Shown in pieces: positions 20,441 to 54,531 of a stretch of 60,010 nt of DNA. Position 1 is the first letter of the stretch, and the number at the start of each line of letters is the position of its first letter. A program made the translations under genes and the position numbers. The notes beneath the pieces were generated by a model, which was not told the DNA's origin, did no database searches, and was given only the letters and a program-made list of their open reading frames with translations. The stretch covers positions 1 to 60,010 of the forward strand of contig JANWVR010000149.1 of NCBI GenBank assembly GCA_025056735.1. Reading direction: 5' to 3'. The DNA comes from Saprospiraceae bacterium. GTDB taxonomy: Bacteria; Bacteroidota; Bacteroidia; Chitinophagales; Saprospiraceae.

Positions 20441-21448
20441 CTATTTACTCCAGCGGCTTGCTGCCTGGCGTATGTTCTCTAAAAAATCGGCTCGCTCTGG
20501 TTTCTTACTTAGGAAAGTGTTTGGCGGGTAGATGCTGTGGCGCGCATAGCTATCGGCAAAAAGTTCGAAGCGTTGGCGGGCTGCGTAGTTGGTCATACCG
20601 GGTCGTGTTCGGTAGGCGCGTAGAGCGTCAATATCGAGCGTAGCGTGGGCTACCATGCTTTCGCCAAAGCCGGCTTCGCTAAGCACGTATCCTTCATAGT
20701 GTATAATTTTAGAGCTACCATCGGCGCTGGCGAAAGGGATGTCTATGCCGGCGATGCCGGCCGAATTGGCCGATACTACATAAGCAATGTTTTCGATGGC
20801 ACGAGCCAGTTTGGCTACGTTCTTCGGGGTCAACTGCGGGCTGCCGATTTCAGAGGTAGAATGCAGAAATACTTCGGCGCCGCGCATCAGGAGGCAACGC
20901 GCAATTTCAGGGTATAGGATTTCTTCGCTGGCAATGCAGGCTAAACGGCCGATGGGTGTATCGGCTACAGGGAAGACGGCTTCTAATCCGTAAATTTCCA
21001 GGTACCTGTCCCATACATCGTGTGGGGTTGGAGCAAACATGCTGTTCACGCGGCGGTAGTTGAGGATGCGCTCGCCTGTAGGCGAAAAGATAAAGCTGCT
21101 CTGGAAATACAGGTCAGGGAAGTGTTCGTCCAGTTCGTAGGCATTGCCCGACAGGAAGATATGGTGGCGTTGAGCTATTTGGCCCAGCGTTGTCCACATG
21201 GGGTCGTCAGGACGTAGGCAGGCTTTTTGCTGCCATTCGGCAATGCTTTCATTCATAGGGAATCCGGTCAGGAAGTACTCGGGCAGCACAACGAGCAACA
21301 CATCTGGACCGATAAAGCGTTTAGAAGCCTGAATTTGCCGTTCGATACGCTCGGCGGTGCGTTGCATCTGTTCGCGGGCGTCCTGTGGTGTAGCTACTGC
21401 ATTGACGGCGAGGCACGTGGTCTGTAGCGCAAGAGCCTTGTAACGCAT
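20441..21448 (-). CDS. Nitrilase-fold carbon-nitrogen hydrolase homologue, active site altered
   Basis: A 335-residue protein of the carbon-nitrogen hydrolase superfamily, which normally cleaves amides or nitriles with a Glu-Lys-Cys triad. The Glu is present in LPEYF (E57). The Lys position, in NYRRVNS (residues 130-136), appears to be Arg133. The Cys position, in IASEEILYPE, appears to be Ser174; a Cys lies three residues earlier (C171). It is therefore either a non-classical enzyme or a binding protein. It forms the outer end of the leftward train, 10 bases after the alpha/beta hydrolase gene, and could act on an amide produced by the ring-opening enzymes of the cluster. Confidence 0.82.
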   Translation of the reverse strand: MRYKALALQTTCLAVNAVATPQDAREQMQRTAERIERQIQASKRFIGPDVLLVVLPEYFLTGFPMNESIAEWQQKACLRPDDPMWTTLGQIAQRHHIFLSGNAYELDEHFPDLYFQSSFIFSPTGERILNYRRVNSMFAPTPHDVWDRYLEIYGLEAVFPVADTPIGRLACIASEEILYPEIARCLLMRGAEVFLHSTSEIGSPQLTPKNVAKLARAIENIAYVVSANSAGIAGIDIPFASADGSSKIIHYEGYVLSEAGFGESMVAHATLDIDALRAYRTRPGMTNYAARQRFELFADSYARHSIYPPNTFLSKKPERADFLENIRQAASRWSK

Positions 21449-21458
21449 GACAGTTGGG

Positions 21459-22340
21459 TCACTGTTTTTTCTCCAGGAAGCGCAGCACAGCTAAGTTGAA
21501 GCGCCTGGGTTGGTCTAGATTGCTCAGGTGGCCGGCTTCAGCCAGAAGAAGTCGCTGAGCATCAGGTGCTTTTTGAACGATAGCATCGGTGATGCGTCGA
21601 ATGCTTTCTTCGTCCTTTTCTCCGACGATGACCAGTAGGGGCGTCTTGAGGTCTCCTAAACGCTCTAAAGTGGGTGGTTGGCCGTATTGCGGTGCAGCAG
21701 CGGGACTCGTAAATTGTGTACCGTCATAGGAGCGCACCATTTTTTCGATCAGCGATTGATATTGGGCTTGAGGCGTTTGCAAGCGCAGCAATGGCACATT
21801 GAGCCAGAGGTTCTGTGTGTTTTCATTCCAACCATCTTGGGCGACAGCGCCAAAAACCTGACCGAAAGCCGCGAAGAGTTCAGGAGTATAATTGGTGAAC
21901 CCGTCTATGTTTGGAGCAGCAGCCACAACTTTGAGTACGCGATCCGGATAGCGCACGGCAAAGTTGAGCGCGATATTAGCGCCCATAGAGAGGCCCACCA
22001 GATGCGCTCGATCTATCTTGAGATGGTCAAGCAAAGCCAGTAGGTCGGCCGCAGGATCGTGAGGCCCCTTTGCTTTAGCAGAACGCCCAAAACCGCGTAC
22101 ATCATAGCGCACTATGCGGAAGCGTTTGCCAAAAGCTTTCCACTGTGGGGCCCACATGCGGGCATCTAATGTGAAGCCGTGAATGAGCACCACGGCTTCA
22201 CCCTTGCTTCTGCCACCGACCTCATAGTACAGATAGGCATCCTTTACCGTCAGTATTTCGCCCTTCCCATCCAAAATGGGTTGCGCCAAAACTGTTTTTG
22301 TTGTGAGAAGAAATGCGAGGGAAAAAAGTATGTATTTCAT
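21459..22340 (-). CDS. Secreted alpha/beta hydrolase
   Basis: A 293-residue serine hydrolase with a signal peptide (residues 1-20, ending VLAQ), so periplasmic or surface-located. The alpha/beta fold motifs are an HGF oxyanion region (54-56), nucleophile elbow GLSMG with Ser118, Asp243 in VGEKDEES and His271 in EAGHLS. It resembles ester or lactone hydrolases; the substrate is unknown. It starts 14 bases after marR ends. Being exported next to a TonB receptor cluster suggests early processing of the imported compound. Confidence 0.87.
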   Translation of the reverse strand: MKYILFSLAFLLTTKTVLAQPILDGKGEILTVKDAYLYYEVGGRSKGEAVVLIHGFTLDARMWAPQWKAFGKRFRIVRYDVRGFGRSAKAKGPHDPAADLLALLDHLKIDRAHLVGLSMGANIALNFAVRYPDRVLKVVAAAPNIDGFTNYTPELFAAFGQVFGAVAQDGWNENTQNLWLNVPLLRLQTPQAQYQSLIEKMVRSYDGTQFTSPAAAPQYGQPPTLERLGDLKTPLLVIVGEKDEESIRRITDAIVQKAPDAQRLLLAEAGHLSNLDQPRRFNLAVLRFLEKKQ

Positions 22341-22354
22341 GTTTGAAAGAAATT

Positions 22355-22828
22355 TTAGAATTCGTCCAACCGTGAGAGGCAGTTATCCAGAAACCGCAAG
22401 ACCGTTTGCATTTCCTGGCGGTCAAAGCTCTCGAACAGCTGCTCGTTGAGCTGAAGGCGCATAGGTTGTAACGACTCCACCAACAAATGCCCCGTGGCCG
22501 ACAGTTCGATACGTTTGCGGCGTTGGTCGTTGCGGTCTTTGACCTGCTCGATAAGGCCCTTTTCCATTAACACGTTAAGCAGTTTCGTTACATTGGGACG
22601 AGAAACATCCAAACTACGTGCAATTTCGGAAGCCAGCATGGGTTTGCGATGCTTTTCCTTCGTAAAAAAAGCCAGATTAGGGTCTTTGGCCAGGTGCAAT
22701 AAAATGAGCCATTGCTGGGCCGAGATCCCTAACTCCTGGCAAATTTTATCGCGGCGGCGTTTGAGCGCTTCGCCTACAGCAATCAGCCGTAGGATGAGCG
22801 ACTCCTCCAAGCGTTTTTCAATGTTCAT
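22355..22828 (-). CDS. MarR-family transcriptional regulator
   Basis: A 157-residue winged-helix protein. The recognition region is MLASEIARSLDVSRPNVTKLLNVLMEKGLIEQ (split here only for description; about 84-115), followed by a wing RNDQRRKRIELSATGHLL. MarR proteins usually repress nearby catabolic or efflux genes and release DNA on binding a small, often phenolic, ligand. Its start overlaps the end of the upstream transporter gene by 11 bases, so it is translated within the leftward train and is the best candidate for local control of the cluster. It is the only classical regulator gene seen between 20 and 54 kb. Confidence 0.9.
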   Translation of the reverse strand: MNIEKRLEESLILRLIAVGEALKRRRDKICQELGISAQQWLILLHLAKDPNLAFFTKEKHRKPMLASEIARSLDVSRPNVTKLLNVLMEKGLIEQVKDRNDQRRKRIELSATGHLLVESLQPMRLQLNEQLFESFDRQEMQTVLRFLDNCLSRLDEF

Positions 22829-24059
22829 CAGCAGCGAAAGTCGTTTTGCGAATAAACGGAATGCAAATCGCCGCTAATGTGCATAAAATCACCATTACCA
22901 GAAAACCTTGTTGGTAAGAGCCACTACTGGAGCGTATGAAGCCCAGGAAACTGATGCCCCCTACCCCTGCCAGCGTGTCTATCATAGTGTACAAGCCCAG
23001 AGTCTTGCCGTAGTGAGGACCACCGTAGTAGTCTGCGATGAGCACCTGAATGATGGTGAACGTCCCACTGAAGCCAATGCCAAATACGACAGCATAGGCC
23101 CAGGTAAGCACCTGAGGATTTCGGTCTGACAGATACAGCAGGAGCGAACCAATCACCATATTTATGGTCGCTAATTGCATGATATACTTTTTCTCAAAGC
23201 GGTCGCTAAGCCAGCCAAAGAAGACCTTGCCGACGAGGCTACAGGCAAAGAATAAACCCAGGATAGAGCCGGCGGGCAGCTGGCCACCCAGGTCTTTTAG
23301 ATACAAGGCCTGATGCTGCACTACGGCCAGTATGGTAAACCACATAGCTGCTGTGGCCACCAGAATGAGGTAGAACGTCGGCGTGCGCACGATTTGGGGT
23401 AAGGTAGGGCCGCTCCAAGAAGAGGTTGACTTCTTAAGGTTGGCAGACGCTTGAGACAGAGCGCCGTCCGGCAGCAAGCCCATTTCTTGGGGAGTGTTGC
23501 GAACGAAGGAGAACAACGGAAGCACCAACACCAACAGCGCAATACCCGCCAGGGTGGTGGCAGCCGAACGCCAGCCCATACTCTGGATGAAATAGGCTGC
23601 CAACGGGTTGAAAATGGCGCCGCCTAAGCTAGAGCCTAGTAAAAAAACGCCTACAGCAATACCCCGATAACGCACAAACCAACGCGTAAGCAGGTGCATG
23701 CTCGAAATGATCCCACATAGCACCAGGCTGATGGAAAAAAGCAGATAAATAGCGCTCATGGCCATCAAGGTGCTGATATGTGCGAAGGCAAAAATGCCCA
23801 GCGTCATAAGCACTGCCCCAATCAATATGACACGGCGCGCGCTAAAGCGGTCCAGCACTGCCCCGACTAAAGGCGACATCAGCGCTACCAATAGAAAGAG
23901 CAATTGAGCCGGGCGTGTTACTTCGCTTTGGTTCCAGCCAAATTCGCGCACCAATTCCGGATAAAAAATAGGCAACGAATTGAGCACTAAACCATTTGTA
24001 ACGGTGTAAGCCAGTGTCAGAGATGCAAGCAGATACCAGCCAAAGAAAGGTTTCTTCAT
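22818..24059 (-). CDS. MFS transporter, OFA/monocarboxylate-like
   Basis: A 413-residue inner-membrane carrier with about 12 hydrophobic segments. The N-terminus FFGWYLLASLTLAYTVTNGL and the loop FSARRVILIG fit the oxalate/formate-monocarboxylate-like branch of the major facilitator superfamily. The ATG at 24059 is chosen because upstream sequence is out-of-frame leuC DNA. It lies between the first aconitase-family pair and marR, so uptake of a carboxylate product or substrate is plausible. Specificity cannot be determined. Confidence 0.88.
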   Translation of the reverse strand: MKKPFFGWYLLASLTLAYTVTNGLVLNSLPIFYPELVREFGWNQSEVTRPAQLLFLLVALMSPLVGAVLDRFSARRVILIGAVLMTLGIFAFAHISTLMAMSAIYLLFSISLVLCGIISSMHLLTRWFVRYRGIAVGVFLLGSSLGGAIFNPLAAYFIQSMGWRSAATTLAGIALLVLVLPLFSFVRNTPQEMGLLPDGALSQASANLKKSTSSWSGPTLPQIVRTPTFYLILVATAAMWFTILAVVQHQALYLKDLGGQLPAGSILGLFFACSLVGKVFFGWLSDRFEKKYIMQLATINMVIGSLLLYLSDRNPQVLTWAYAVVFGIGFSGTFTIIQVLIADYYGGPHYGKTLGLYTMIDTLAGVGGISFLGFIRSSSGSYQQGFLVMVILCTLAAICIPFIRKTTFAADEH

Positions 24060-24093: not shown

Positions 24094-25332
24094 CTATTGG
24101 TCACCTGGCGGAGGTAGTGTGATGTGTCCGGCCAATACGGAAGCGGCCACAGTGGCGGGCGAGGCCAGGAAGATTTGGGCACGCGGGTTACCCATGCGCC
24201 CGCGGAAGTTTCGGTTAGCAGCGGAGATGACGGTTTCGCCGTCGGCAGGCACGCCTTCGTGGCTGCCCACGCAAGGGCCACAGCCTGGCGTGATGAGGGT
24301 GGCGCCGGCTTCAACCAGGGCATGAGCAGTACCATCGAGCATGGCATCGAGCAGTACCGAGCGCGAGGCGGGCGCAACCACTAAGCGCACTCCCTTGGGC
24401 AATCGCTTGCCACGTAAGATACGCGCCGCCACCTGCAAGTCCTCTAAACGGCCATTGCCGCAGGTGCCGATAAAGCCATAATGCACAGGCGTACCGATGT
24501 AGCGGTCAATGGGATACACGTTATCGGGTGACTCTGGAGCGGCTACCTGAGGCGGAAGTTCGCCAATGTCAACTTCAATTGTCTGGACATATTCGGCGTC
24601 AGGGTCGGGCTCTATAGGTTCAAAAAAATAAGGCAATTTAAGCCCGCGCGGGTGCACAAAGCCCGTCTTAGCGCCCATTTCGGCCGTCATATTGGCCACA
24701 CATAGCCGACTGGCCAGCGACATGGTTTCAAAAGCCTCACCTTCAAACTCTACCGACATGTAGGTGGCGCCGGAGATGCCTACCTTGCCCGTCAGGTACA
24801 GGATAAGGTCTTTGGCACTGGCTTCAGGGCGCAGCTGGCCATGGCAGCGTATGCGCAGGGTAGCTGGCGTTTTCAGCCAGATTTTGCCCGTTAGCATCAC
24901 GGCAGCCAGGTCGGTAGAGCCTACACCGCAGGCAAAAGCATTAAGTGCTCCGTAGGTAGGCGTATGGCTATCGGCACCGGTGAACAAATAACCCGGCCGT
25001 ACATAACCTTGCTCCACCATCACCTGATGGCAGATGCCTTCGCCAATCTCAAACAGGCGGATGCCTTGCTGGCGGGCAAACTCGCGCATGAACCGGTGTA
25101 GGTTGGCAATGCGCTCGTTGGGTGCTGGCGCGGCATGGTCTATGACGAAGGCACACCTTTCAGGCGCCCACACATGCCGGCCTCCCATCTTTTCAAAAGC
25201 CCTGATGGCGCCTGGCGCTGTCGTGTCAGTAGCCATCAGGCCATCCACAGGCGCTATAACGATGTCGCCTGGCCGAACCCGCTGGCCTGTTTTCTGAAAC
25301 AGTATCTTCTCGACAGTGGTCATTCCTCTCAT
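24094..25332 (-). CDS. Aconitase-family hydratase, large subunit (LeuC-like), copy 1
   Basis: A 412-residue iron-sulfur hydro-lyase subunit of the isopropylmalate isomerase/homoaconitase group. The 4Fe-4S cysteines are C291 (GTCGNG), C351 and C354 (GCGPC); the substrate loop GADSHTPTYGAL is at 119-130. Such enzymes add water to, or remove it from, substituted malates or maleates. It is 10 bases from the matching small subunit at 25342. The neighbours are catabolic and no leuA or leuB is present, so leucine synthesis is unlikely. Dimethylmaleate- or citraconate-type hydration is a better guess. A second Met at 25323 is an alternative start. Confidence 0.88.
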   Translation of the reverse strand: MRGMTTVEKILFQKTGQRVRPGDIVIAPVDGLMATDTTAPGAIRAFEKMGGRHVWAPERCAFVIDHAAPAPNERIANLHRFMREFARQQGIRLFEIGEGICHQVMVEQGYVRPGYLFTGADSHTPTYGALNAFACGVGSTDLAAVMLTGKIWLKTPATLRIRCHGQLRPEASAKDLILYLTGKVGISGATYMSVEFEGEAFETMSLASRLCVANMTAEMGAKTGFVHPRGLKLPYFFEPIEPDPDAEYVQTIEVDIGELPPQVAAPESPDNVYPIDRYIGTPVHYGFIGTCGNGRLEDLQVAARILRGKRLPKGVRLVVAPASRSVLLDAMLDGTAHALVEAGATLITPGCGPCVGSHEGVPADGETVISAANRNFRGRMGNPRAQIFLASPATVAASVLAGHITLPPPGDQ

Positions 25333-25341
25333 AGCCCAGGC

Positions 25342-25836
25342 TTAGAAAGTTTTGTGTTCACGCAAGTAATTCACTAATCCACCCGCCTGCAAGATGCGCA
25401 GCATCACTTCGGGTAAGGGTTTTGCTTGATAAACCTTGCCCGTCGTGTGATTATACACCTTTCCATCGGCTAGGTCGGCTTCCAGCTCATCGCCCTGAGC
25501 GATATCGTGCTCTGGAATTTCGAGCACGGGTAGGCCAATGTTGATGGCATTTCGGAAAAAAATGCGGGCGAAATAGCGTGCAATAACTGCTGACACGCCA
25601 GCCGTTTGCAGGGCTAGAGGCGCCTGTTCTCGTGAAGAGCCACAGCCAAAATTGTTACCTGCCACCACAAAGTCGCCAGGGCGCATGCGGCTTCGGAATT
25701 CCGGGTCTAAGTCTTCCAGTACGTGCTCGGCCAGCGATTGAGCGTCAAGCGTCTTCGTGTACTTGCCCGGAATGATGCGGTCAGTATCAATGTTGTCACC
25801 ATACACGTGGGCGTGTCCGCGCAAAACTTTGCTCAT
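25342..25836 (-). CDS. Aconitase-family hydratase, small subunit (LeuD-like), copy 1
   Basis: A 164-residue swivel-domain subunit partnering copy 1 of the large subunit. Both family motifs are intact: DNIDTDRIIPG (14-24) and NNFGCGSSREQAP (61-73), with the active-site Ser-Arg in GSSR. It is the first gene of a leftward transcript, with a TAGCTTTG box at 25943-25936 about 100 bases upstream. Compared with copy 2 (36389-36922) this one keeps the classical residues and is probably an active hydratase with its large subunit. Confidence 0.9.
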   Translation of the reverse strand: MSKVLRGHAHVYGDNIDTDRIIPGKYTKTLDAQSLAEHVLEDLDPEFRSRMRPGDFVVAGNNFGCGSSREQAPLALQTAGVSAVIARYFARIFFRNAINIGLPVLEIPEHDIAQGDELEADLADGKVYNHTTGKVYQAKPLPEVMLRILQAGGLVNYLREHKTF

Positions 25837-26061: not shown

Positions 26062-27465
26062 TCATTGAGGTGCTATTTGCTCTACAACAGCTGCTGCACT
26101 TTCGCAGGCGGCTTCGATGCCGTTGTTTTTTAGGCCTAAATGCTCGCCAGCAAAGTAGACTCGCCCTACTGGCTGGCACAGCATCGGGAAGAAGCGATAG
26201 ACCTGCCCAGGCGCCAGGTGAAAGTAAGCGCCTCTAGCCCAGGGGTTTTTGCTCCACGAGTTGATGTGGAGTACATCCAGCTGGCCTTCAGATGCTGGAC
26301 GCAGCATTTGCATTTCGCGCAAGAAGGCAGTGGCTACTTCTGCTTCGGTGAGCTGGTCTAAAGCCTCAGCCTGACTACCGTTGACCCAGCTAATGAGGCC
26401 TTGTTGGCCATTTTGGCCCCGATTGAGGAAGATTCGCCCGAATGGTCCGTCGGTCCACATGTTGACGGGCAAGCCATCATCTTCCCAGAAGGGACGGCGG
26501 GAGGCCACATGCAGCTGCGTGATGCGCGTATATGGCAGATGTTGGATGGCCTCTCGATGCAGGGGCGTCAGGCCTCGAGTGAACTGGATATCAGCCAGCA
26601 CCGACATGGGCACGGTGACGATGACGCAGCGGGCCTGATACTCAGAGCCGTCGGCGCACCGTACGCTGACACGTCGTCCTCGGTCGTGAATACGCACGAC
26701 TTGCTTGCTCAACTCTACCCGCCCGCGCAGGTGCGAGGCCACAGCCTCGGGCAAACGCTGGCTGCCACCCTGAATACGCAAGACCTTGCGGCTACCGCCC
26801 TTTTGGCGAAAGGTCAAAGCCCGAAAAAAATGTAGCGCCGAAGTAGTTGCCAGATCATTCGTATTGGCATTCGCTCCAATGAGGCGTATAGCTTCCTCCG
26901 AAACATGATGCTGCCGCAATAAATCTGATGTCGCCGTATCGAAAGCCGAAAAGCGCGCATTATACCAGTCCTCCGTTGTCTGCAGCGGATTGAGGGAGCC
27001 GAGCAGAGCCGCTTCCAGAGCCGCAGGAACATACTTCTTTTCACTTTCGTACAAGTGGTTGTGTGGCGAAGTAGGCCACTCCTTGTCTAACACTTTTTGC
27101 CCGCGCACGACGTAAAGCATGGGCGTACGGCGTGGGTCTTCTCCTGTCGGTTCCACAACGCGAATACCTATCTTCTCAGCTAGCCCCAAAAGCAGCCGAT
27201 AGCCGTCACCAATTTCTGTACCGCCAGTTTCAGGTTTCCAGGGCAGGGCGTCCAGCGTGTATAAGCGCCCACCCACGCGCGCCGATGCCTCCAGCACGCG
27301 CACCGTCAGGCCGCGCTCCTCTAACGCATAGGCAGCATACAGACCCGAAATACCAGCGCCAACCACTAACACGTCGGTCGTCGCTTCGCTTACGAAGGCA
27401 AAACGCCCTACCAGCAACGAACCGCATGCAAAGGATGTCTGCTTCAAAAAAGTGCGTCGTTCCAT
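26062..27465 (-). CDS. FAD-dependent amine oxidase, Tat-exported
   Basis: A 467-residue flavoprotein. With the ATG at 27465 the N-terminus is a twin-arginine signal (MERRTFLKQTSFACGSLLVG), so it should be exported folded to the periplasm. A dinucleotide-binding motif VVGAGISGLYAAYALEERG follows, then EASARVGGRLYT. The C-terminal FAD motif is YFAGEHLG ... GIEAACESA. This is the monoamine oxidase/flavin amine oxidase fold, which oxidises amines or desaturates C-C bonds (as in phytoene and protoporphyrinogen enzymes). It ends the inner part of the leftward train, 7 bases after the transporter gene. Confidence 0.9.
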   Translation of the reverse strand: MERRTFLKQTSFACGSLLVGRFAFVSEATTDVLVVGAGISGLYAAYALEERGLTVRVLEASARVGGRLYTLDALPWKPETGGTEIGDGYRLLLGLAEKIGIRVVEPTGEDPRRTPMLYVVRGQKVLDKEWPTSPHNHLYESEKKYVPAALEAALLGSLNPLQTTEDWYNARFSAFDTATSDLLRQHHVSEEAIRLIGANANTNDLATTSALHFFRALTFRQKGGSRKVLRIQGGSQRLPEAVASHLRGRVELSKQVVRIHDRGRRVSVRCADGSEYQARCVIVTVPMSVLADIQFTRGLTPLHREAIQHLPYTRITQLHVASRRPFWEDDGLPVNMWTDGPFGRIFLNRGQNGQQGLISWVNGSQAEALDQLTEAEVATAFLREMQMLRPASEGQLDVLHINSWSKNPWARGAYFHLAPGQVYRFFPMLCQPVGRVYFAGEHLGLKNNGIEAACESAAAVVEQIAPQ

Positions 27466-46651: not shown

Positions 46652-47776
46652 ATGAATGTCTTGAGCGATATCTTAGTATTGGATTGCACCCACGCCGTCA
46701 TGGGCCCTACCACCAGCCTCCTGCTGGCTGATATGGGCGCCGAGGTCATCCATATTGAGCCGCCCGACGGCGACCCTACACGTCGCCTTAAAGGTTTCGG
46801 CACCGGCTACTTCACCTTCTTTAACCGCAACAAGAAAAGCCTGACCCTCAACCTGAAGTCAGAAGAAGGTAAAAGCACTTTTCTGCGACTGGCCCAAAAG
46901 GCCGATGTAGTAGTGGAAAACTTCGGGCCAGGCACGATGGAGCGGTTGGGGCTGGGCCATGAAGCCCTTTTAGCCCTGAATCCGCGGCTCATCTATTGCT
47001 CGCTCAAGGGTTTCCTGCCTGGCCCCTACGAAAAGCGACACGCCATGGACGAAGTCGTCCAGATGATGGGGGGGCTGGCCTATATGACGGGTCGCCCGGG
47101 TGACCCTCTGCGTGCTGGGAGTTCCATCGTGGACATTACTGGCGGCATGTTTGGTCTCATCGGTATCTTGCTGGCTCTGTTAGAGCGCCAGAAGACCGGC
47201 CAGGGTAAATTCGTGCAAGCCTCGCTCTTCGAGACTACCGCCTTTCTTATGGGCCAACACATGGCCTATGGTGCTATCAGTCAGGAGCCAGTGCCGCCCA
47301 TGCCTGCACGCGTCAGCGCCTGGAGCATTTATTCCATCTTTGAAACAGCGGATGGTGAGAGCGTCTTTATAGGAGTAATTAGTGAAAAACATTGGGAGAG
47401 ATTATGTCAGACCTTTGACTGGGCAGACTGGCTTCACGACCCACGCTTATCTACTAATAATCAGCGCATTGCTGAGCGCGAATGGTTCCAACCGGCTCTG
47501 CGCGAACGCTTCGCCCAATTCACTAAAGTGCAGATTATTGAAAAATGTGAAGCCGCCGGCATTCCCTTCGCCCCTATCGCCCGACCTGAAGACCTCTTCG
47601 ACGATCCGCATCTGCGCCAGGGCCAGAACCTGCTCGACGTTCGCCTGCCCGACGGACGCACCGCTCCGCTGCCCAATCTGCCACTGCTCTATGGCAACCA
47701 ACGCGCGCAAAAACGCCTCGACCCGCCCAATATCGGCGAACATAATGAAGAAATTCTCAAACTCTTGAACGCCTGA
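46652..47776 (+). CDS. Class III CoA-transferase (CaiB/BaiF family)
   Basis: A 374-residue protein that transfers CoA between acids. Opening DILVLDCTHAVMGPTTSLLLADMGAEVIHIEPP is the family signature; the catalytic Asp is D133 in RHAMDEVVQMMGG. RHNKKSLTLNL-type sequence (NRNKKSLTLNLKS) is also present. It would activate a carboxylic acid intermediate, perhaps the diacid from ring opening, before a lyase such as the HMG-CoA-lyase-like enzyme. Length is normal. Confidence 0.92.
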   Translation: MNVLSDILVLDCTHAVMGPTTSLLLADMGAEVIHIEPPDGDPTRRLKGFGTGYFTFFNRNKKSLTLNLKSEEGKSTFLRLAQKADVVVENFGPGTMERLGLGHEALLALNPRLIYCSLKGFLPGPYEKRHAMDEVVQMMGGLAYMTGRPGDPLRAGSSIVDITGGMFGLIGILLALLERQKTGQGKFVQASLFETTAFLMGQHMAYGAISQEPVPPMPARVSAWSIYSIFETADGESVFIGVISEKHWERLCQTFDWADWLHDPRLSTNNQRIAEREWFQPALRERFAQFTKVQIIEKCEAAGIPFAPIARPEDLFDDPHLRQGQNLLDVRLPDGRTAPLPNLPLLYGNQRAQKRLDPPNIGEHNEEILKLLNA

Positions 47777-47838: not shown

Positions 47839-49311
47839 ATGACTCACGAGAGCACTCACCTTATCATCAAAAACGCACGTGTTGTCCGCCCGAACACGCC
47901 TGAGGTAGAACAAAAGGACATCCGCATTCTCGAAGGTAAAATCGTAGAGGTGGAGCCTCGACTACCCGTCTCAGACGACGCACAGGTTTTCGATGCTAGA
48001 GGATTATTGGCTTTCCCGGGCCTCACCGACGCCCATATGCACACAGGCATTTACAGCCCGCTCGATCAGGATGCCCGTACTGAAAGCCGCGCCGCTGCTA
48101 TGGGAGGCGTTACCAGCAGCCTCAATTATATCCGTACGGGCCGCTATTACCTCAACAAAGGTGGCCCCTACCGCGACTTCATGCCCGAAGTGCTGAGTCT
48201 TTCCCGAGGTAACTTCTATGTGGACTACGGCTATCATATTGCGCCTATTCAGTATAGCCACATCGAGGAAATAGAGCCGCTTATCGAATTCTTCGGAGTT
48301 ACTTCTTTTAAAATTTTCATGTTTTACGGCTCGCACGGCTTGCACGGTAAAGCCACTAAAAGTAGCCAGAATGAGTTTCTGATGACCCCCGAAGGTGAAC
48401 ATTACGATATTGCCCACTTCGAGTTTATTATGCGCGGCATTCGTCGGGCAATGGATGCCTTTCCGGACAGGAGCGATATCATTAGCTTGAGCCTGCATTG
48501 CGAAACGGCTGAAATCATGCGTGCTTACACAGAGATTGTGGAGCGCGAGGGCAAACTCAAGGGGCTACGCGCCTATTCGGCCAGCCGACCGCCGCATTCG
48601 GAAGGTCTAGCCATTTTCATCGCCTCCTATCTGGCTCACGAGACAGACTGCATGAACATCAATCTGTTGCATTTAACCTCACGCAAAGCAGTGGAAGCCG
48701 CACTGATGATGGAGCAAGTGTTCCCACACATCAACTTTCGCCGTGAAGTAACCATCGGGCACCTGCTACTCGACTATGACTCGCCCGCCGGCGGCTACGC
48801 TAAGGTGAACCCGCCCATCCGCTCGCGCGAAGATGTAGAGTACCTGTGGCAGTGCTTGTTGGAGGGCAAAATTGACTGGGTCGTCAGCGACCACGCCTGT
48901 TGCTCGCACGAGTTCAAGCTGGATAAAAATGACCCCTCTAACATCTTTTTGGCCAAATCAGGTTTTGGCGGCACCGAATATTTGCTCTCCGGCCTGTTTT
49001 CGGAGGGCAGCAAACGCGGTATGAGCTATCAGCATATGGCACAATTAGTGTGCTGGAACCCCGCCCAACGCTACGGCCTGCGCCAAAAAGGCGACATCGC
49101 TCCGGGCTACGACGGCGACATCGTGCTGCTCGACCCCAACGAAACTTTTACCGTGCGCGCCGCAGAGTCTGAGAGCGCCCAGGGTTATACGCCCTTTGAG
49201 GGTATGACACTCACTGGGCGCGTCAAGCACACCTTCCTGCGCGGCAGGCACATCTACAATAATGGGGCCATCCAGGGCGAACCCCAGGGCCAATATCTGT
49301 GGCGCCATTAA
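47839..49311 (+). CDS. Dihydropyrimidinase/cyclic-imide-hydrolase-like amidohydrolase
   Basis: A 490-residue metal-dependent amidohydrolase. Metal-site residues can all be placed: H66 and H68 (TDAHMHTG), the Lys expected to be carboxylated, K158 (VTSFKIF), H220 (SLHCETAE), H278 (LLHLTSR) and D351 (VVSDHACCSHE). The family opens cyclic amides: dihydropyrimidines, hydantoins, imides, allantoin. The substrate is not decided by sequence. With HyuAB it gives the cluster two independent ring-opening systems. Confidence 0.9.
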   Translation: MTHESTHLIIKNARVVRPNTPEVEQKDIRILEGKIVEVEPRLPVSDDAQVFDARGLLAFPGLTDAHMHTGIYSPLDQDARTESRAAAMGGVTSSLNYIRTGRYYLNKGGPYRDFMPEVLSLSRGNFYVDYGYHIAPIQYSHIEEIEPLIEFFGVTSFKIFMFYGSHGLHGKATKSSQNEFLMTPEGEHYDIAHFEFIMRGIRRAMDAFPDRSDIISLSLHCETAEIMRAYTEIVEREGKLKGLRAYSASRPPHSEGLAIFIASYLAHETDCMNINLLHLTSRKAVEAALMMEQVFPHINFRREVTIGHLLLDYDSPAGGYAKVNPPIRSREDVEYLWQCLLEGKIDWVVSDHACCSHEFKLDKNDPSNIFLAKSGFGGTEYLLSGLFSEGSKRGMSYQHMAQLVCWNPAQRYGLRQKGDIAPGYDGDIVLLDPNETFTVRAAESESAQGYTPFEGMTLTGRVKHTFLRGRHIYNNGAIQGEPQGQYLWRH

Positions 49312-49403: not shown

Positions 49404-49763
49404 ATGAAACTCAACGACATCGTAATGGCCAGTGACAAATCAAAAGGCGCACGGCCCTATTTCTTCGATGACCCTATGGCCGAGCGCGTGATGAACATCG
49501 CGATGGCAGTAGCCACAGAGGTAGCCGTTATTCGCGAACGGATAGACACTATTGAGCGCCTTCTGGAAGCCAAAGGCATACTTACGCAGGAGGAAATTGA
49601 GGACTTTGTCCCCACCGACGAGCAAGCCGAAGAACGCCAACTGTGGCACGCCCGCTATACAGCGCGTATCCTGCGCATTGTCAAACAGGAGCTGGACGCT
49701 GTCGCCAATCCAGAGGACAATAAACCTATGCATCAGATTGCCGATGAAATCAACGAGATGTAG
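49404..49763 (+). CDS. Small helical protein of unknown function
   Basis: A 119-residue soluble protein I do not recognise. It is strongly helical, with a probable coiled coil at about residues 30-57 (heptad-like EVAVIRERIDTIERLLEAKG) and a second acidic helix region (EEIEDFVPTDEQAEERQLW). The ATG at 49404 is preferred because upstream in-frame codons overlap the amidohydrolase end. It could be a subunit or oligomerisation partner of the amidohydrolase just upstream; this is a guess from position. Confidence 0.65.
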   Translation: MKLNDIVMASDKSKGARPYFFDDPMAERVMNIAMAVATEVAVIRERIDTIERLLEAKGILTQEEIEDFVPTDEQAEERQLWHARYTARILRIVKQELDAVANPEDNKPMHQIADEINEM

Positions 49764-49768: not shown

Positions 49769-50467
49769 ATGATGAAGCAAACTCTTTTCGACAGGGTTGG
49801 CGCTCTCGCCACTGATGCTCGAGCCGTTTTGCGGACTCTTTCTCTCTTACCTATGGTAGTTGCCCTTGTCTCATGTAGGTCACTCACGCCCCCAGAAGTG
49901 TCGCCGCCAGCTATTCATGTGTTCAAAAGCTATATCACTGGCGACTTTGACAACCGCCAGCAGGTGGAAGCCGAGCGTGCAGCAGGAAAACAGGTGCACC
50001 CACTGGCCCGTCACGTCAACCGCGTTGCCGACCACCGCATCCGGAACGCGCCTCAACGGGCGGGATTCTGGCTCATCGAAGAAAGCTATTACGATATGCC
50101 CGACGGCACGCACAAAATTAATCACCACCTGTTCTTCTTCGAAGCTGTAGATGCGCGCACGGTGCGCCTGTATGCCTACCAGCTGCCCGACTATTTACCC
50201 ATGGAACAGCTGACCAACGATAACCCAAATCTAAGCATAGATTACCACGACCTGCGCATCAGCCCGCGCTTTAAACCCGCCGAATACGCCTTCGACGGCA
50301 AAGACACCTTTACCATCCACGCTCCTAATGATTGGGGCAATGGCATGCAATTTACGCTCATCGAAAAATTCACCCCGGGCCGCCTGGAGGTAATGGAACT
50401 CCTAGAAAAAAACGGGCAACGGCTAACGCCATATGATACGCCGATTATTTACTTGAAAACCCAATAG
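49769..50467 (+). CDS. CpcT/CpeT-like (bilin-lyase fold) lipoprotein, copy 1
   Basis: A 232-residue protein with a lipoprotein signal (LLPMVVALVSC, Cys near residue 36). The mature part resembles CpcT/CpeT chromophore lyases: a FKSYITGDFDNRQQ opening, then FWLIEESYYDMPDGTHKINHHLFFFEAVD and VRLYAYQLPDYLPMEQ. In cyanobacteria such calycin-barrel proteins attach bilins to phycobiliproteins; none exist here, so binding of a bilin-like or other hydrophobic ligand in the periplasm is more likely. It starts five bases after the small helical protein gene. Confidence 0.75.
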   Translation: MMKQTLFDRVGALATDARAVLRTLSLLPMVVALVSCRSLTPPEVSPPAIHVFKSYITGDFDNRQQVEAERAAGKQVHPLARHVNRVADHRIRNAPQRAGFWLIEESYYDMPDGTHKINHHLFFFEAVDARTVRLYAYQLPDYLPMEQLTNDNPNLSIDYHDLRISPRFKPAEYAFDGKDTFTIHAPNDWGNGMQFTLIEKFTPGRLEVMELLEKNGQRLTPYDTPIIYLKTQ

Positions 50468-50516: not shown

Positions 50517-51734
50517 ATGGGAGACAACAGGCAAAATTCAATAGGCTATTCGCTTCCGCCGGTATGGACGAAGCTGAAGCAACACGCGGTATTTCCGCAC
50601 TTCACGCACGATGAACGCGCTCGCTATAACTTTCTATCCAACCTGAACCGGTATTTGTCCACGGTTGTCGCTCCGGGGGTCCAGGTAGCGTATGAGCGGC
50701 GCGTGGAGCCTGCTTTTAAAGCCGAGCACGACCGTACGTTTGAAAACCGCCACGAACTGCGCGAGGCGATCAGCCGCGACGCCTATTACCAACTATGGGC
50801 TGCCTTGCGCCGCTGCACTATGGAAATGCGCCAGCAGAATGGTCGAGCGGCGGTATTGCGTCAGGCCGAAGAGCTGGCCCAGCGCGTGCAAGAAACGCTG
50901 AAAGGACATGAAGATATCCTTCGCCTGAAGCCAGGTTTTAAAGTGCCGGCCTACCTGCGTCACGTGGATAACCATCTGATGCCGGGGAGCTACCACACTG
51001 AGTACTTCGAGGGGGATGTAGCCAATGCCGCCAATTACGATAGCGGCTTGTTCGTTACCAGTGGCGGTATGCTGGGCAGCCTCACCGATGGCGGTGGCCG
51101 TGCCATCGCAAAATGGGTGCGCGAAAACTATCCTAACTTCAAACCCAAACGCATCTTAGACATCGGCTGCGGGCTAGGCCACAACACGCTGCCCATTGCT
51201 GAGAGCTTCCCGGATGCTGAAGTCTGGGCCATTGACGCGGGCGCCCCCATGCTGCGCTACGGCGCTGCACGTGCTATTGCCCTGGGTATCACGAACGTGC
51301 GCTTTGTCCAAATGGACGCCGAAGACATGAGCGAATTTCCAGACGGCTATTTCGACTGGGTGCAAACAACGATGTTCTTACACGAAACGGGCGGTAAAGC
51401 CATTCATAAAATCTTCCGAGAAATCGGTCGTGTGCTGGCTCCCGGTGGGCTGACGCTACACATCGAACAGCCGCAATACACACCGGAAATGTCTTACTTT
51501 GAGCAATTTATGCGCGACTGGGACGCCTACTATAACGCCGAACCGTACTGGGGCCACATGCACGACCTGCAGCCTGAAGACCTCATAGAAGAAGCTGGCA
51601 TCCCACGGGCCAACTTCCTGCAAGTGGGTGTGCGAGCCGTCAATGACTTAGACAAACCCAACGGCACCCAGGTGCGCGAAGACTATGGACGCTCGCCTAT
51701 CTGGAATGTGTTTGGTGGCTGGAAACCAAAATAA
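50517..51734 (+). CDS. Class I SAM-dependent methyltransferase
   Basis: A 405-residue methyltransferase with an extra N-terminal domain of about 190 residues. Motif I is RILDIGCGLGHNTLP, followed by AEVWAIDAGAPML (acidic loop), VQMDAEDMSEF and a LAPGGLTLHIEQP stretch. It probably methylates a small molecule; the unusual N-terminal region is not recognised. It lies between two CpcT-like genes and may modify a shared ligand. The leader before the ATG is AT-rich (AAAACAAGAAAAT). Confidence 0.87.
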   Translation: MGDNRQNSIGYSLPPVWTKLKQHAVFPHFTHDERARYNFLSNLNRYLSTVVAPGVQVAYERRVEPAFKAEHDRTFENRHELREAISRDAYYQLWAALRRCTMEMRQQNGRAAVLRQAEELAQRVQETLKGHEDILRLKPGFKVPAYLRHVDNHLMPGSYHTEYFEGDVANAANYDSGLFVTSGGMLGSLTDGGGRAIAKWVRENYPNFKPKRILDIGCGLGHNTLPIAESFPDAEVWAIDAGAPMLRYGAARAIALGITNVRFVQMDAEDMSEFPDGYFDWVQTTMFLHETGGKAIHKIFREIGRVLAPGGLTLHIEQPQYTPEMSYFEQFMRDWDAYYNAEPYWGHMHDLQPEDLIEEAGIPRANFLQVGVRAVNDLDKPNGTQVREDYGRSPIWNVFGGWKPK

Positions 51735-51742: not shown

Positions 51743-52183
51743 ATGACCGCTGTGCAAAGCGTGGTGGAAACCATTGCCGAACATTATCAGGCCATCGTGG
51801 ACAAAAACCTACCCGGCATCTTAGATAAATACGTGCCTTCGGAAGAGACCTACGTCATTCTGGAAGGTCCTCGCTTAACAACGATAGGCTTTGAAAAAAT
51901 TAGAAAAGGTTGGATGGATTTCTGCCAATCGGCTATCGAGTTACAGGGCATTGAATGGCTGGAAGGCCCGTTTCATCAACAAACAGACAGCATGGCCTGG
52001 GTGGCTGGCATCATCCGGCTATGCGTGAGTGTATCAGGACGCGCCTTCGAGAACATATTTCGGGCTACCTTCGTGCTGGTGCCCGATGCTGCCTCTGGCC
52101 AATGGCGTATCCGACACGAACACGTATCAGGGGCATTGCCCAACCCCTACGGCATCGGCGATTGGTCGAGAAAACAAGATTAA
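51743..52183 (+). CDS. SnoaL/NTF2-like protein
   Basis: A 146-residue cone-shaped NTF2-fold protein (SVVETIAEHYQAIVDKNLPGILDKYVPSEETYVILEGP; later GRAFENIFRATFVLV). Family members include ketosteroid isomerase, polyketide cyclases and plain binding proteins. No specific catalytic pair can be assigned with confidence. It lies eight bases after the methyltransferase gene. Confidence 0.82.
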   Translation: MTAVQSVVETIAEHYQAIVDKNLPGILDKYVPSEETYVILEGPRLTTIGFEKIRKGWMDFCQSAIELQGIEWLEGPFHQQTDSMAWVAGIIRLCVSVSGRAFENIFRATFVLVPDAASGQWRIRHEHVSGALPNPYGIGDWSRKQD

Positions 52184-52186: not shown

Positions 52187-53116
52187 ATGCAATGCGCTTT
52201 TGATAAAAAAGGTCTGGCCACGTCCTGGAAAGGCTGCTCTAAAAAGGCCGGCAGGGCATTCTCACGCCACAAGTTGGTGGTGATAATGCTGTTAGGCGGG
52301 CTCTTCATGGCAAACTTGCGAGCACAGACTCCTGTAGACGTATTCGCCCACTACCTCAGCGGCGAATGGGACAACTTTCAGCAATGCTGGACGGAAAATA
52401 CAGAGACGGAAAGCCACCGCGTGCCAACGGCTCACCCTCATCGGCATATACACAGCGTATTCGAGCGCGACACAGCGGCAGGCCTTTGGGTATGGCGTGT
52501 GGAACATTACGAGGGCAACCGGCGGCAATTGCTGGCACAGTATACTATGCGCCTTCGAGAGTTGCCAGATGGGCAATGGCAAACCGACTTTTCTCCGATG
52601 CGTGCTGAGGGCCAACCCGTACCCCTTCCAACGCCCATCCGATGGCGATTGGCCGAAAACGCTTTCATCGGCCAAACCCTGGACGGCCTTTCCTCTTTCG
52701 TCCTTAAAAAGGATACTTTCTGGCTGCTCGACACAGGCCTTTTTGCCCGGCCCGACCAGGAACCGTACCGCTTCCTAAAATGCCGCTTCTTTCGCGGCTG
52801 GATACAGTACCCCATGGAGCACGTGCGCCCTGATAGCATCTATTTTTATGCCGGTCTGACACTGCACGACCAGGGCGATGCCGTCCAATTGCGTTTCCCC
52901 GACGGCTCTAATGGCGAGTATACTGTGGAATTAACGCAACTAGTCCATAGCCGCCGCACACCCATTATGAAATTAGCCATTTACACCGAGCCCCCTGAGC
53001 GATTACACTGGAACAGTCGCGCTATAGCCTATACCTGGGCTGACCCGGCTGCACGCCGTATCGGCATCAACATCCGAAAAGTAGTCTCCGGCTGGACCCT
53101 CATTAGCGACCCATGA
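52187..53116 (+). CDS. CpcT/CpeT-like exported protein, copy 2
   Basis: A 309-residue protein with a signal segment at about residues 28-47 (LVVIMLLGGLFMANLRAQ) after a basic N-tail. The mature start VFAHYLSGEWDNFQQCWTE aligns with the FKSYITGDFDNRQQVEAE stretch of copy 1, and HIHSVFERDTAAGLWVWRVEHY parallels its W-L-I-E-E-S-Y region. It is longer, with about 80 additional C-terminal residues. Its stop overlaps the aldehyde dehydrogenase start by four bases. Ligand binding is presumed; no enzyme residues were recognised. Confidence 0.68.
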   Translation: MQCAFDKKGLATSWKGCSKKAGRAFSRHKLVVIMLLGGLFMANLRAQTPVDVFAHYLSGEWDNFQQCWTENTETESHRVPTAHPHRHIHSVFERDTAAGLWVWRVEHYEGNRRQLLAQYTMRLRELPDGQWQTDFSPMRAEGQPVPLPTPIRWRLAENAFIGQTLDGLSSFVLKKDTFWLLDTGLFARPDQEPYRFLKCRFFRGWIQYPMEHVRPDSIYFYAGLTLHDQGDAVQLRFPDGSNGEYTVELTQLVHSRRTPIMKLAIYTEPPERLHWNSRAIAYTWADPAARRIGINIRKVVSGWTLISDP

Positions 53117-54531
53117 GTATTGCGAAATACCCCGTCCGAAACCCGCGCACTGGAGAGGTAGACTACCATTTCGACCTCCCTGACCACGAACACCTGTGCC
53201 ACGTTGTGGCCCACCTGCGTCAGCATCAACCGCCATGGGCCCTCTTACCTGTTCATGAGCGCATGGCTGCCTTGCAAGCCTGGAAATCAGCATTAAATCG
53301 GCACTTACCTGCCCTCGTCGAGGCCCTCACTGCCGACACAGGTCGTCGCCACGAAAGCGTGCTGGAAGCCCAACTCATTGGCCAGAGCATTGATCGCTGG
53401 TGTCAGGCAAGTGAAACCTTCTTTCAGGAAACTCCTGACCGCGTCAGTACTATCCCATTCATCCATATCCGCCAGGATGTGCAACCCATCCCGGTAGTGG
53501 GTGTTATCAGCCCTTGGAACTTCCCACTCCTGCTGGGCCTAATTGATACGCTTCCTGCCCTGTTAGCCGGGTGTAGCGTAGTGGTGAAGCCCAGCGAAAT
53601 TACTCCGCGCTTTATTGAGCCGCTTATGGCCTCGATACGTGAAACGCCCTTACTGCGCGACGTGCTTCTCTTCATCGCCGGCGATGGTACTACTGGCGCA
53701 CAACTGATTGAGTTAGTCGACCTGGTATGTTTTACCGGTAGCGTTGCCACGGGCCGAAAGGTGTATGCCGCCTGTGCGGAGCGCTTCATCCCGTGCTTTC
53801 TGGAATTAGGGGGTAAAGACCCGGCTATCGTGCTCGAAGGCGCTAACCTGGAACATGCCGCCGCTTCCATTCTTTGGGGGAGCACCGTCAATTGTGGTCA
53901 ATCGTGCCTATCCATCGAGCGAGTGTATGTGCAAGAGAGTGTTCTGGAGGAATTCTTAGAAAAACTAAAGCAACGCGCCGAAAATGTCCGACTGGCTTAT
54001 CCTTCGCCCGAAGATGGCCAGATTGGCCCGGTCATTTCCGAAAGACAGGTGCACATCCTCAACGAACACCTGCGCGACGCAATAGAAAAGGGGGCTCGGG
54101 TGCTCACCGGCAGTACGCAGTGCGAAAACTTAGGCGGGGGCTGGTACTGCCGGCCCACCGTGCTGGCGGGTGTCAACCATTCGATGAAGGTGATGACGGA
54201 AGAGACGTTTGGTCCTATCATTCCAGTAATGCCGTTTCGTAGCGTTGAGGAGGCAATCCAGCTGGCTAATGGTACTATTTATGGCCTGAGCGCAGCGGTA
54301 TTTGCCGGCGACTGGCACACTGCCTGGCGTATCGGGCAGCGCCTGGAAGCTGGCGCTGTCTCCATTAACGAATGCGCTTTGACAGCCTTGGTGCACGAAG
54401 GCGAAAAACAATCCTTCAAAATGTCGGGCATCGGCGGTACACGCATGGGGCCAGCAGCACTGAAGCGATTTGTACGTCAGCGCGCCTTTCTCATCAAAAA
54501 AGAGCCACTGGCATCGCCATGGTGGTTCTGA
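53113..54531 (+). CDS. Aldehyde dehydrogenase
   Basis: A 472-residue NAD(P)-dependent aldehyde dehydrogenase. The proton-relay Asn is in SPWNFPLLLG, catalytic Glu in FLELGGKDPAI and Cys in VNCGQSCLSIERV. It would oxidise the aldehyde released by the aldolase or another cleavage step. It is the last clear member of the rightward train, coupled by an ATGA overlap to the CpcT-like gene. It is not a close copy of the dehydrogenase at 18884. Confidence 0.92.
   Translation: MSIAKYPVRNPRTGEVDYHFDLPDHEHLCHVVAHLRQHQPPWALLPVHERMAALQAWKSALNRHLPALVEALTADTGRRHESVLEAQLIGQSIDRWCQASETFFQETPDRVSTIPFIHIRQDVQPIPVVGVISPWNFPLLLGLIDTLPALLAGCSVVVKPSEITPRFIEPLMASIRETPLLRDVLLFIAGDGTTGAQLIELVDLVCFTGSVATGRKVYAACAERFIPCFLELGGKDPAIVLEGANLEHAAASILWGSTVNCGQSCLSIERVYVQESVLEEFLEKLKQRAENVRLAYPSPEDGQIGPVISERQVHILNEHLRDAIEKGARVLTGSTQCENLGGGWYCRPTVLAGVNHSMKVMTEETFGPIIPVMPFRSVEEAIQLANGTIYGLSAAVFAGDWHTAWRIGQRLEAGAVSINECALTALVHEGEKQSFKMSGIGGTRMGPAALKRFVRQRAFLIKKEPLASPWWF

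Follow-up and report, generated by a model that had tools for sequence, protein, structure and literature searches.

Which compound is consumed by the gene block at positions 20441–54531 of a 60,010-nucleotide stretch (hereafter the window) of contig JANWVR010000149.1 from a Saprospiraceae bacterium (assembly GCA_025056735.1), whose genome measures 3.74 Mb? The block comprises 32 tightly packed genes over approximately 34 kb, diverging from approximately 34.4 kb into a left arm of 12 genes on the minus strand (20441–34348) and a right arm of 20 genes on the plus strand (34532–54531, with the start of DUF3598 corrected). A first-pass annotation of the window had described two gene trains running outwards from 34.35–34.53 kb with repeated ATGA-type overlaps, and its strands, gene content and end points all check out. 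After correction of open reading frame (ORF) starts, five 4-base overlaps were confirmed (mfs2/hmgl, hmgl/voc1, voc1/duf1838, abh2/fadox and cpeT2/aldh2), and the intergenic gaps are mostly shorter than 100 bp (exceptions, 225, 183 and 102 bp). Our preferred reading, held with slightly less than even confidence, is that the cluster catabolises open-chain (linear) tetrapyrroles, either phycobilins or the bilins of heme and chlorophyll, together with their mono- and dipyrrolic breakdown products. The substrate, every reaction and the enzymes that would cut the carbon bridges are inferred from sequence.

The reading turns on cpeT2, the penultimate gene of the right arm. Its product has no Pfam match above cut-off and none to PF06206, the family of T-type lyases. 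The AlphaFold model, built from eight sequences (alignment A2; predicted local distance difference test score 85.3), returned a single Foldseek match below 1e-3 in the PDB: 5HI8, a T-type phycobiliprotein lyase, CpeT, from a Prochlorococcus phage (E 3.3e-4, probability 1.00, template modelling score 0.74 by target and 0.39 by query length). The sole PDB match of the sequence profile is also 5HI8, at a non-significant E of 0.081. PF06206 is matched by three of the eight members of A2 (best, 3.5e-37) and, at 5.3e-10, by a homologue in locus L080. On these comparisons, cpeT2 is predicted to adopt the β-barrel fold of T-type lyases. A cpeT2 homologue from locus L066 was compared with 50,697 phage records, allowing E values up to 10; of the 35 matches, 33 are cyanophages by name, and the host is Synechococcus in all 32 that state one. 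Sorted by first word, these matches are Synechococcus (20), Cyanophage (11), Prochlorococcus (2), Marine (1) and Bacteriophage (1); the best E is 2e-5, and seven of the ten matches listed are annotated as a chromophore lyase or CpeT-like antenna protein.

CpeT-like genes also co-localise with the cluster in other genomes. A genome collection was scanned with a seven-sequence alignment (A1) of the methyltransferase encoded in the right arm (mtase), giving 211 confirmed relatives, the best 80 of which were kept as loci. Grouping by methyltransferase similarity separated 28 Bacteroidota-type loci, including two contigs titled Cyanobacteria bacterium, from 52 others, including one titled Acidobacteria and one Gammaproteobacteria. 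Gene presence was scored with tblastn, because ORF calling in GC-rich loci gave antisense ORFs and missed genes, over at most 10 kb on each side (more than 20 kb in 17 of the 28 and 28 of the 52 loci); the clusters extend past this distance, and absences of genes from loci are not proven. CpeT-like genes were found in 20 of these 80 loci (6 of 28 and 14 of 52), none of which had been selected for CpeT. By comparison, 288 other alphaproteobacterial whole genomes (the centre genome left out) include three with PF06206, and the family is absent from 13 of 14 control genomes. We further examined 30 cluster genomes of our own selection, all with the methyltransferase: 28 of the 80 loci, the window and G011, another species of the same genus. 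PF06206 was found in 19 of them (39 matches). In 9 genomes, 12 matches lie no more than 5 kb from the methyltransferase (five of these genomes were already known to carry a CpeT-like gene and four were not), and in 12 genomes 18 matches lie within 22 kb. Where CpeT lies elsewhere in the genome, it can adjoin a TonB-receptor-like match and further pathway genes (L162, L166), and such a receptor match adjoins in 8 of 13 contexts of the cpeT2 type. In an even sample of Bacteroidota, PF06206 occurs in 22 and the methyltransferase in 5 of 296 genomes, the window's own included; with the latter left out, CpeT is present in 4 of 4 methyltransferase genomes and 18 of 291 others (Fisher's P = 2.4e-5), P values here being indicative only, as the sampled genomes are related. 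Bilins, which the first-pass annotation had listed among several candidate substrates, are favoured here because of the CpeT fold of cpeT2 and this co-localisation; as the substrate they stay putative.

The 32-gene block behaves as one unit that is patchily distributed. All of its genes recur in identical order, with other neighbours, in G011. Identity there is 69–92% over the main alignments, and the window's flanking genes do not adjoin the cluster (flank covered, 4.2 and 1.9 kb). In a third species of the genus, G002, the left arm and the adjoining aldh1 lie on one contig and the right arm on another, the latter (L025) with the window's right flank. Failure to find hydL2 in G002 had raised the loss of its right arm as a possibility, which was rejected on finding the methyltransferase on the second contig, at the coordinates of L025; hydL2 most likely falls in the contig gap. 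The aldehyde dehydrogenase gene aldh1 abuts the cluster in G002 as in the window and is not beside it in the covered part of G011, and is probably an optional member. The methyltransferase occurs in 3 of the 25 species of the genus examined, the window included, and the carriers nearest to the window bear Saprospiraceae titles (L025 and L026).

Beyond the Bacteroidota, a smaller core is shared with sphingomonad plasmids. The methyltransferase is 50–51% identical over its full length to five plasmid copies, and across the core the values are approximately 51% for this enzyme, 49–55% for the 119-residue small protein, 30–47% for HapK and 52–58% for the SDR dehydrogenase (sdr1), the last in six sphingomonad loci, beside HapK. 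Two plasmids carrying the methyltransferase cluster, pJE1 of Sphingomonas sp. JE1 and pTomTYG65b of Sphingobium sp. TomTYG65, extend the likeness well past this core: relative to the window, HapK is 43% identical, SDR 52–53%, the small protein 51%, HyuA 37%, HyuB 27%, the CoA-transferase 51–52%, the HMG-CoA lyase 41% and a succinate-semialdehyde dehydrogenase 57% (to aldh1), and both hold FAD enzymes, two LeuCD pairs, a TonB receptor and MFS carriers. The small protein, for which Pfam gave no family above cut-off and the PDB no meaningful match, is found in 79 of the 80 methyltransferase loci, and wherever ORF calling picked up both, it comes directly after the methyltransferase. The right arm recurs in many Bacteroidota loci (DUF3598, hydL2, hydS2, hpcH, hapK, sdr, hyuA, hyuB, methyltransferase, small protein, SnoaL and mfs2); DUF3598 itself was detected in 16 of the 28 Bacteroidota-type loci and in 7 of the other 52. 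Among 13 control loci, nine of them chosen for a CpeT gene, sdr1 was detected in seven and a LeuC-like gene in one, and the methyltransferase, small protein, HapK, HyuA and HyuB in none. Because they are the best conserved genes between the two phyla, the methyltransferase, small protein, HapK and SDR are, from sequence comparison, the first candidates for bridge cutting. The first-pass annotation had made its proposal depend on the genes being conserved together elsewhere, and so they are: in the gene order of G011, the two arms of G002 and the core on sphingomonad plasmids.

Several observations adjoin this core. Distant paralogues of the methyltransferase (34–43%) occur in Novosphingobium, Niveispirillum and Nitrospirillum genomes, and one (L018) has its own small-protein relative adjoining. 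The two contigs titled Cyanobacteria bacterium (L042 and L048) carry Bacteroidota-like methyltransferase loci, 59–61% identical to the window, and are probably misbinned companions of cyanobacteria. DUF1838 was rejected as an anchor for finding clusters, the two plasmid contexts read, in Streptomyces SGAir0924 and Novosphingobium P6W, being unrelated, as was LeuC, whose best plasmid match (Skermanella) lies in an unrelated context.

Around the core, the ring openers, hydratases and carbon–carbon lyases are filled by different families in the two phyla. The matching slots of pJE1 and pTomTYG65b are occupied by two proteins of the polysaccharide-deacetylase family, one of the isochorismatase family, two LeuCD pairs, a phosphoenolpyruvate mutase/isocitrate lyase (PEP-mutase/ICL) protein, HMG-CoA lyase, CoA-transferase and HyuAB. 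Deacetylase-type proteins occur in 34 of 91 loci by protein clustering and in 38 of the 52 non-Bacteroidota loci by tblastn; they are nearest to the allantoinase PuuE (L086 protein to 3CL6, 1.4e-57), and PuuE-like proteins include imidases. A protein of the isochorismatase family, members of which hydrolyse maleamate, is encoded in 6 of the 52 loci. The lyase slot there is taken by PEP-mutase/ICL (4 of 52) or CitE-type lyases (20 of 52), and acyl-CoA dehydrogenase and MaoC hydratase appear in 21 of 52 each. LeuC-like proteins are only approximately 30% identical between the phyla. Of the 17 Bacteroidota-type loci exceeding 20 kb, 14 carry a gene resembling dhp, PuuE or HyuA and 11 a gene resembling LeuC, MaoC or MmgE; for the 28 other loci of that length, the counts are 20 and 21.

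In the window itself, dhp has the motifs HxH, Lys, His, His and Asp, starting at residues 65, 157, 219, 276 and 350, which we take to be the metal ligands of cyclic amidohydrolases, and scores below the equivalog cut-offs for allantoinase (235.7 versus 357.85) and dihydropyrimidinase (184.7 versus 393.25). One report counts imidase among the cyclic amidohydrolases, the family of dhp (PMC4437985); among the papers listed on imidases and polysaccharide deacetylases, no imidase of PuuE type was evident. HyuA and HyuB carry Pfam domains of the hydantoinase/oxoprolinase superfamily above cut-off; the best curated match of HyuA is caprolactamase, although both subunits fall short of the CapAB equivalog cut-offs. 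GTCxNGR and CxxC motifs, presumably supplying the Fe–S cysteines, are present in hydL1 and hydL2. The best curated model for the CoA-transferase is succinate–glutarate transferase, with succinyl-CoA:mesaconate transferase close behind, all below cut-offs. What the fully read clusters of the two phyla best have in common is the opening of an imide or lactam ring followed by hydration and carbon–carbon cleavage of the resulting diacid. The scheme is largely supported at the level of gene content, the best argument being that its ring opener, hydratase and lyase are filled by different families around one core. The first-pass annotation had anticipated this sequence of ring opening to an unsaturated diacid, hydration and cleavage; as a scheme common to both phyla, and as one catabolic unit, it holds, and the individual reactions stay conjectural.

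Under the bilin reading, the TonB receptor and the exported CpeT-fold proteins would catch the pigment, which exported and flavin enzymes (mao, VOC and fadox) together with the HapK/SDR/methyltransferase/small-protein core may break at its carbon bridges. Oxidation of heme- and chlorophyll-type pigments yields methylvinylmaleimide, methylethylmaleimide and hematinic acid; bridge cleavage would likewise release lactams and dialkylmaleimides (for example, methylvinylmaleimide and hematinic acid). One account describes both maleimides and hematinic acid, from leaves and lake sediments, as breakdown products of heme and chlorophyll (PMC7318184). The imides would then be opened by dhp and the lactams by HyuAB, with the nitrilase-like enzyme freeing ammonia. 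Two imide types would call for two dialkylmaleate hydratases, and the cluster has two LeuCD-type enzymes that could act on the two kinds of dialkylmaleate. The hydroxy acids would be cleaved by the HpcH/HpaI-like enzyme and, after CoA transfer, by the HMG-CoA-lyase-like enzyme, and the aldehyde dehydrogenases would finish; a CoA-transferase nearest to succinate–glutarate and mesaconate transferases, paired with an HMG-CoA-lyase-like enzyme, fits alkylated diacids. Blooms, mats or cyanobacterial cultures are presumably the source of several of the 80 carriers (UKL13-1, BBD, HLUCCA04 and SupBloom among them), and the carrier L098, Aquidulcibacter paucihalophilus TH1-2, is reported from cyanobacterial aggregates (PMC5712168). 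These habitats lend support and do not constitute a test.

Other evidence weighs against bilins. The cluster contains no recognised bilin-cleaving enzyme, and heme was rejected as a starting substrate, the genome giving no heme oxygenase family match. To judge by title or name, some carriers come from soil or roots. The examined DNA of 60 of the 80 loci holds no CpeT gene, and the set of 30 genomes includes five of the seven loci with an alphaproteobacterial CpeT-like gene already seen by clustering, which leans its figures upwards. PF06206 was found in none of 11 of those 30 genomes, including the tested Novosphingobium, Niveispirillum and Nitrospirillum; in four of the 11 (the window, G011 and the genomes of L043 and L051), divergent homologues score below threshold. 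The four co-occurrences in the even Bacteroidota sample represent two genera, three of them a single genus, and in the corresponding alphaproteobacterial sample CpeT is present in 1 of 5 methyltransferase genomes and 2 of 283 others (P = 0.05; centre genome left out). Of the 22 Bacteroidota genomes with CpeT, 18 have no methyltransferase, and the cluster is missing from 9 of the 12 CpeT contexts read; because most sampled Bacteroidota CpeT genes are thus unrelated to it, the family alone is no proof of a bilin substrate. The case for cpeT1 is weaker than that for cpeT2: it does not reach the PF06206 cut-off, and its model has no Foldseek match below 1e-3. Its profile (A3) matches the chromophore lyase CRL (6LIX, 3.7e-9) and the A2 profile (E 6e-8), but A3 is mixed, containing six alphaproteobacterial-type CpeT proteins that may carry both matches. 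Within 10 kb, LeuC-like genes were found in 13 of 28 and 7 of 52 loci and dhp in 4 of 28 and 0 of 52; hydS2 misses the LeuD/DmdB cut-off that hydS1 exceeds; and in nit, inspected by eye, the Glu and Cys motifs are present and the usual Lys position appears to be Arg (YRRVN). Amidases of the nitrilase superfamily use a catalytic Glu-Lys-Cys triad, and nit may not be a standard amidase.

Two groups of CpeT-like genes stand apart from the cluster. A shorter form (frames of 204–272 residues, compared with 328–345 for the cluster type) is scattered through the Bacteroidota (L178–L185 and L189), with nine contexts read, all of them without the cluster; given the preponderance of CpeT genomes lacking the methyltransferase and of unrelated contexts, this group is taken to have another role. 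A CpeT-like gene in a Clostridioides plasmid stands alone.

An alternative is that the substrate is another cyclic imide or lactam, such as a pyrrole, hydantoin or alkaloid of plants, algae or cyanobacteria, taken through the same ring opening, hydration and cleavage, with the CpeT-fold proteins acting as general binders of hydrophobic ligands. We regard this as unlikely but a serious competitor: the ring openers and hydratases are the best-supported part of the pathway, CpeT is unseen in most loci, and CpeT genes also occur without the cluster. In addition, a cyclic hydrolase 60% identical to dhp is encoded on plasmid pDND3A of Rhodococcus gordoniae (L014) beside HyuAB, two CoA ester lyases, two MmgE/PrpD proteins and CoA-transferases, in a cluster with no match to the methyltransferase or HapK. 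It is harder to reconcile with CpeT-like genes in a quarter of the loci, 20 of 80, when the family is rare in Alphaproteobacteria, and with a cpeT2 fold match that is specifically to a phage CpeT lyase. Another hydrolase of 60% identity lies on a Streptomyces plasmid (L013) with no further cluster matches.

Rather improbable is a sphingomonad-style cluster for a nitrogen-free natural product (a terpenoid, steroid or polyphenol), in which HyuAB would be an ATP-dependent carboxylase, and dhp and the nitrilase would have side jobs. HyuA does match acetophenone and acetone carboxylases, and SDR, VOC, SnoaL, FAD and CoA-transferase genes are common in sphingomonad-style catabolic clusters; yet the best curated match of HyuA is caprolactamase, and the occurrence of different cyclic-amide-hydrolase families in two phyla, together with the isochorismatase-family proteins, is hard to explain without nitrogen. 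Biosynthesis of a prodiginine-like pigment, to which a HapK/RedY family match, methyltransferase, amine oxidase and SDR could point, is very improbable: by Pfam, the 32 genes include neither a synthase nor carrier-protein or condensing genes and encode instead lyases, hydratases, hydrolases, a CoA-transferase and an importer-type receptor.

Table 1. Genes of the divergent cluster and the adjoining aldh1, with positions in the window and supporting matches (scores in bits where compared with a cut-off, otherwise E values).
Feature	Position	Strand	Evidence
aldh1, SSADH-like aldehyde dehydrogenase	18884..20356	-	TIGR01780 707.6 bits > cut-off 646.35; outside the cluster coordinates
nit, nitrilase-superfamily protein (putative half-amide hydrolase)	20441..21448	-	PF00795 1.1e-24
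abh1, exported-looking alpha/beta hydrolase	21459..22340	-	PF00561 4.8e-27; hydrophobic N-terminus
MarR regulator	22355..22828	-	PF12802 3.5e-13
mfs1, MFS carrier	22818..24059	-	PF07690 8.8e-41; start corrected
hydL1, LeuC/DmdA-type hydratase large subunit	24094..25332	-	PF00330 1.3e-93; TIGR02086 501.6 > 410.15; three Fe-S-type Cys
hydS1, LeuD/DmdB-type small subunit	25342..25836	-	TIGR02087 204.2 > 108.95
mao, flavin amine-oxidase-like enzyme, RR-type export signal	26062..27465	-	PF01593 2.5e-59; MERRTFLKQ start
mfs2, MFS carrier	27473..28687	-	PF07690 1.4e-27; behind the methyltransferase module in other Bacteroidota
hmgl, HMG-CoA-lyase-like enzyme	28684..29589	-	PRK05692 299 > 246
voc1, VOC protein (glyoxalase/dioxygenase fold)	29586..30707	-	PF00903 2.5e-5; hydrophobic N-terminus
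DUF1838 lipoprotein-like protein	30704..31597	-	PF08894 3.3e-74; N-terminus
TonB-dependent receptor	31676..34348	-	PF00593 1.8e-40, PF07715 2.7e-14
Divergent intergenic region	34349..34531	.	183 bp, AT-rich, imperfect inverted repeats
DUF3598-N protein	34532..35038	+	PF12204 1.5e-6
hydL2, second LeuC-type hydratase large subunit	35100..36371	+	TIGR02086 481.7 > 410.15; Fe-S-type Cys
hydS2, divergent LeuD-type small subunit	36389..36922	+	PF00694 3e-6; TIGR02087 94.7 < 108.95
HpcH/HpaI-like aldolase	36939..37691	+	PF03328 3.4e-27
HapK/RedY-like protein	37746..38060	+	PF11639 7.4e-10
sdr1, SDR dehydrogenase	38082..38915	+	PF13561 3.4e-63
hyuA, ATP-dependent lactamase-type subunit (caprolactamase/oxoprolinase-like)	38934..41015	+	PF01968 2e-85; CapA 550.8 bits, cut-off 1000
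voc2, VOC lipoprotein-like protein	41025..41606	+	PF00903 8.8e-11; N-terminus
hyuB	41632..43266	+	PF02538 5.2e-147; CapB 189 bits, cut-off 1000
mdr, zinc-type oxidoreductase	43314..44309	+	PF16884 5.7e-34
abh2, alpha/beta hydrolase	44343..45179	+	PF00561 4.8e-7
fadox, FAD_binding_2 reductase/dehydrogenase	45176..46627	+	PF00890 1.2e-56
Class III CoA-transferase	46652..47776	+	PF02515 2.2e-114
dhp, cyclic amidohydrolase (putative imide ring opener)	47839..49311	+	PF07969/PF01979; allantoinase/hydantoinase structures
Small protein (119 residues), no assigned family, constant methyltransferase companion	49404..49763	+	No Pfam family above cut-off
cpeT1, exported-looking CpeT/CRL-like protein (weaker case)	49769..50467	+	PF06206 13.3 < 21
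mtase, S-adenosylmethionine methyltransferase fold, 405 residues, N-terminal part of ~190 residues; core marker	50517..51734	+	PF13649 5.8e-21
SnoaL-like protein	51743..52183	+	PF13474 2.9e-7
cpeT2, exported-looking protein with predicted T-type bilin-lyase fold	52286..53116	+	Model score 85.3; Foldseek 5HI8
aldh2, aldehyde dehydrogenase	53113..54531	+	PF00171 2e-110

The families named in the first-pass annotation (TonB receptor, two MFS carriers, MarR, two LeuCD-type hydratases, HyuAB, a dihydropyrimidinase-like hydrolase, class III CoA-transferase, HMG-CoA-lyase-like and HpcH/HpaI-like enzymes, redox enzymes and exported-looking proteins) were recovered with Pfam or curated models (Table 1). 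Judged by eye from their N termini, eight products look exported, lipid-anchored or outer-membrane: abh1, mao, voc1, voc2, the DUF1838 protein, the TonB receptor, cpeT1 and cpeT2. The receptor falls below the cut-offs for siderophore and heme receptors, and the DUF3598 protein has no match among solved structures. A search for the sigma-70 consensus, which is uninformative for Bacteroidota, gave no match. Upstream of the cluster, a RhuM/Fic-domain protein (7976–8890) and an AAA/DUF4143 ATPase (9142–10638) are probably unrelated accessory genes.

Phycobilins, heme and chlorophyll hold much nitrogen in blooms and mats, and we know of no account of how aerobic bacteria return bilins to carbon and ammonia. 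Among the papers listed in searches of the open-access full-text literature, none presented a bilin-catabolic or comparable gene cluster, and none contradicted the first-pass statement that no described pathway with this gene set is known. It is possible, at clearly less than an even chance, that the cluster represents the first recognised gene set for complete bilin catabolism, distributed among Bacteroidota and Alphaproteobacteria, many living beside cyanobacteria, and combining exported pigment catchers of T-type fold, a new methyltransferase/small-protein/HapK/SDR core that would dismantle the chain, and parallel imide–diacid routes that the two phyla built from different enzymes. Bilin catabolism can be tested directly on the enzymes and cultured carriers that the cluster identifies. 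If the reading is true, CpeT-type proteins would gain a catabolic role outside cyanobacteria, and the 119-residue partner and 405-residue methyltransferase their first context.

Among known systems, SusCD-type loci resemble the cluster as Bacteroidota operons with a TonB receptor; here, Pfam matches of the cluster proteins include neither SusD nor a glycoside hydrolase, and the receptor scores below the SusC cut-off (106.6 versus 368.25). Caprolactamase, 5-oxoprolinase and N-methylhydantoinase (HyuAB) are the nearest structural and curated relatives of HyuA, with the window's subunits far below the caprolactamase cut-offs. Known degradation of cyclic imides proceeds through an imidase and a half-amidase, and finds candidate counterparts in dhp here, PuuE-like proteins in Alphaproteobacteria and amidase-family genes in the fully read clusters; dhp, however, reaches no equivalog cut-off and sits in a far longer pathway. 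The dimethylmaleate pathway of nicotinate fermentation, with its DmdAB hydratase and dimethylmalate lyase, would share a LeuCD-type hydratase and a carbon–carbon lyase acting on an alkylated maleate, and the plasmid clusters include a PEP-mutase/ICL protein; the window differs in having two hydratases and HpcH/HpaI- and HMG-CoA-lyase-like enzymes. Closest to the pigment itself are the T-type lyases CpeT and CpcT and the plant protein CRL (PF06206; 5HI8 and 6LIX), which cpeT2 resembles in predicted fold and its homologues in sequence. Unlike these, cpeT2 looks exported, spans 269 residues compared with 136 in the phage protein, and belongs to the catabolic operon of a heterotroph, where its bilin binding is putative.

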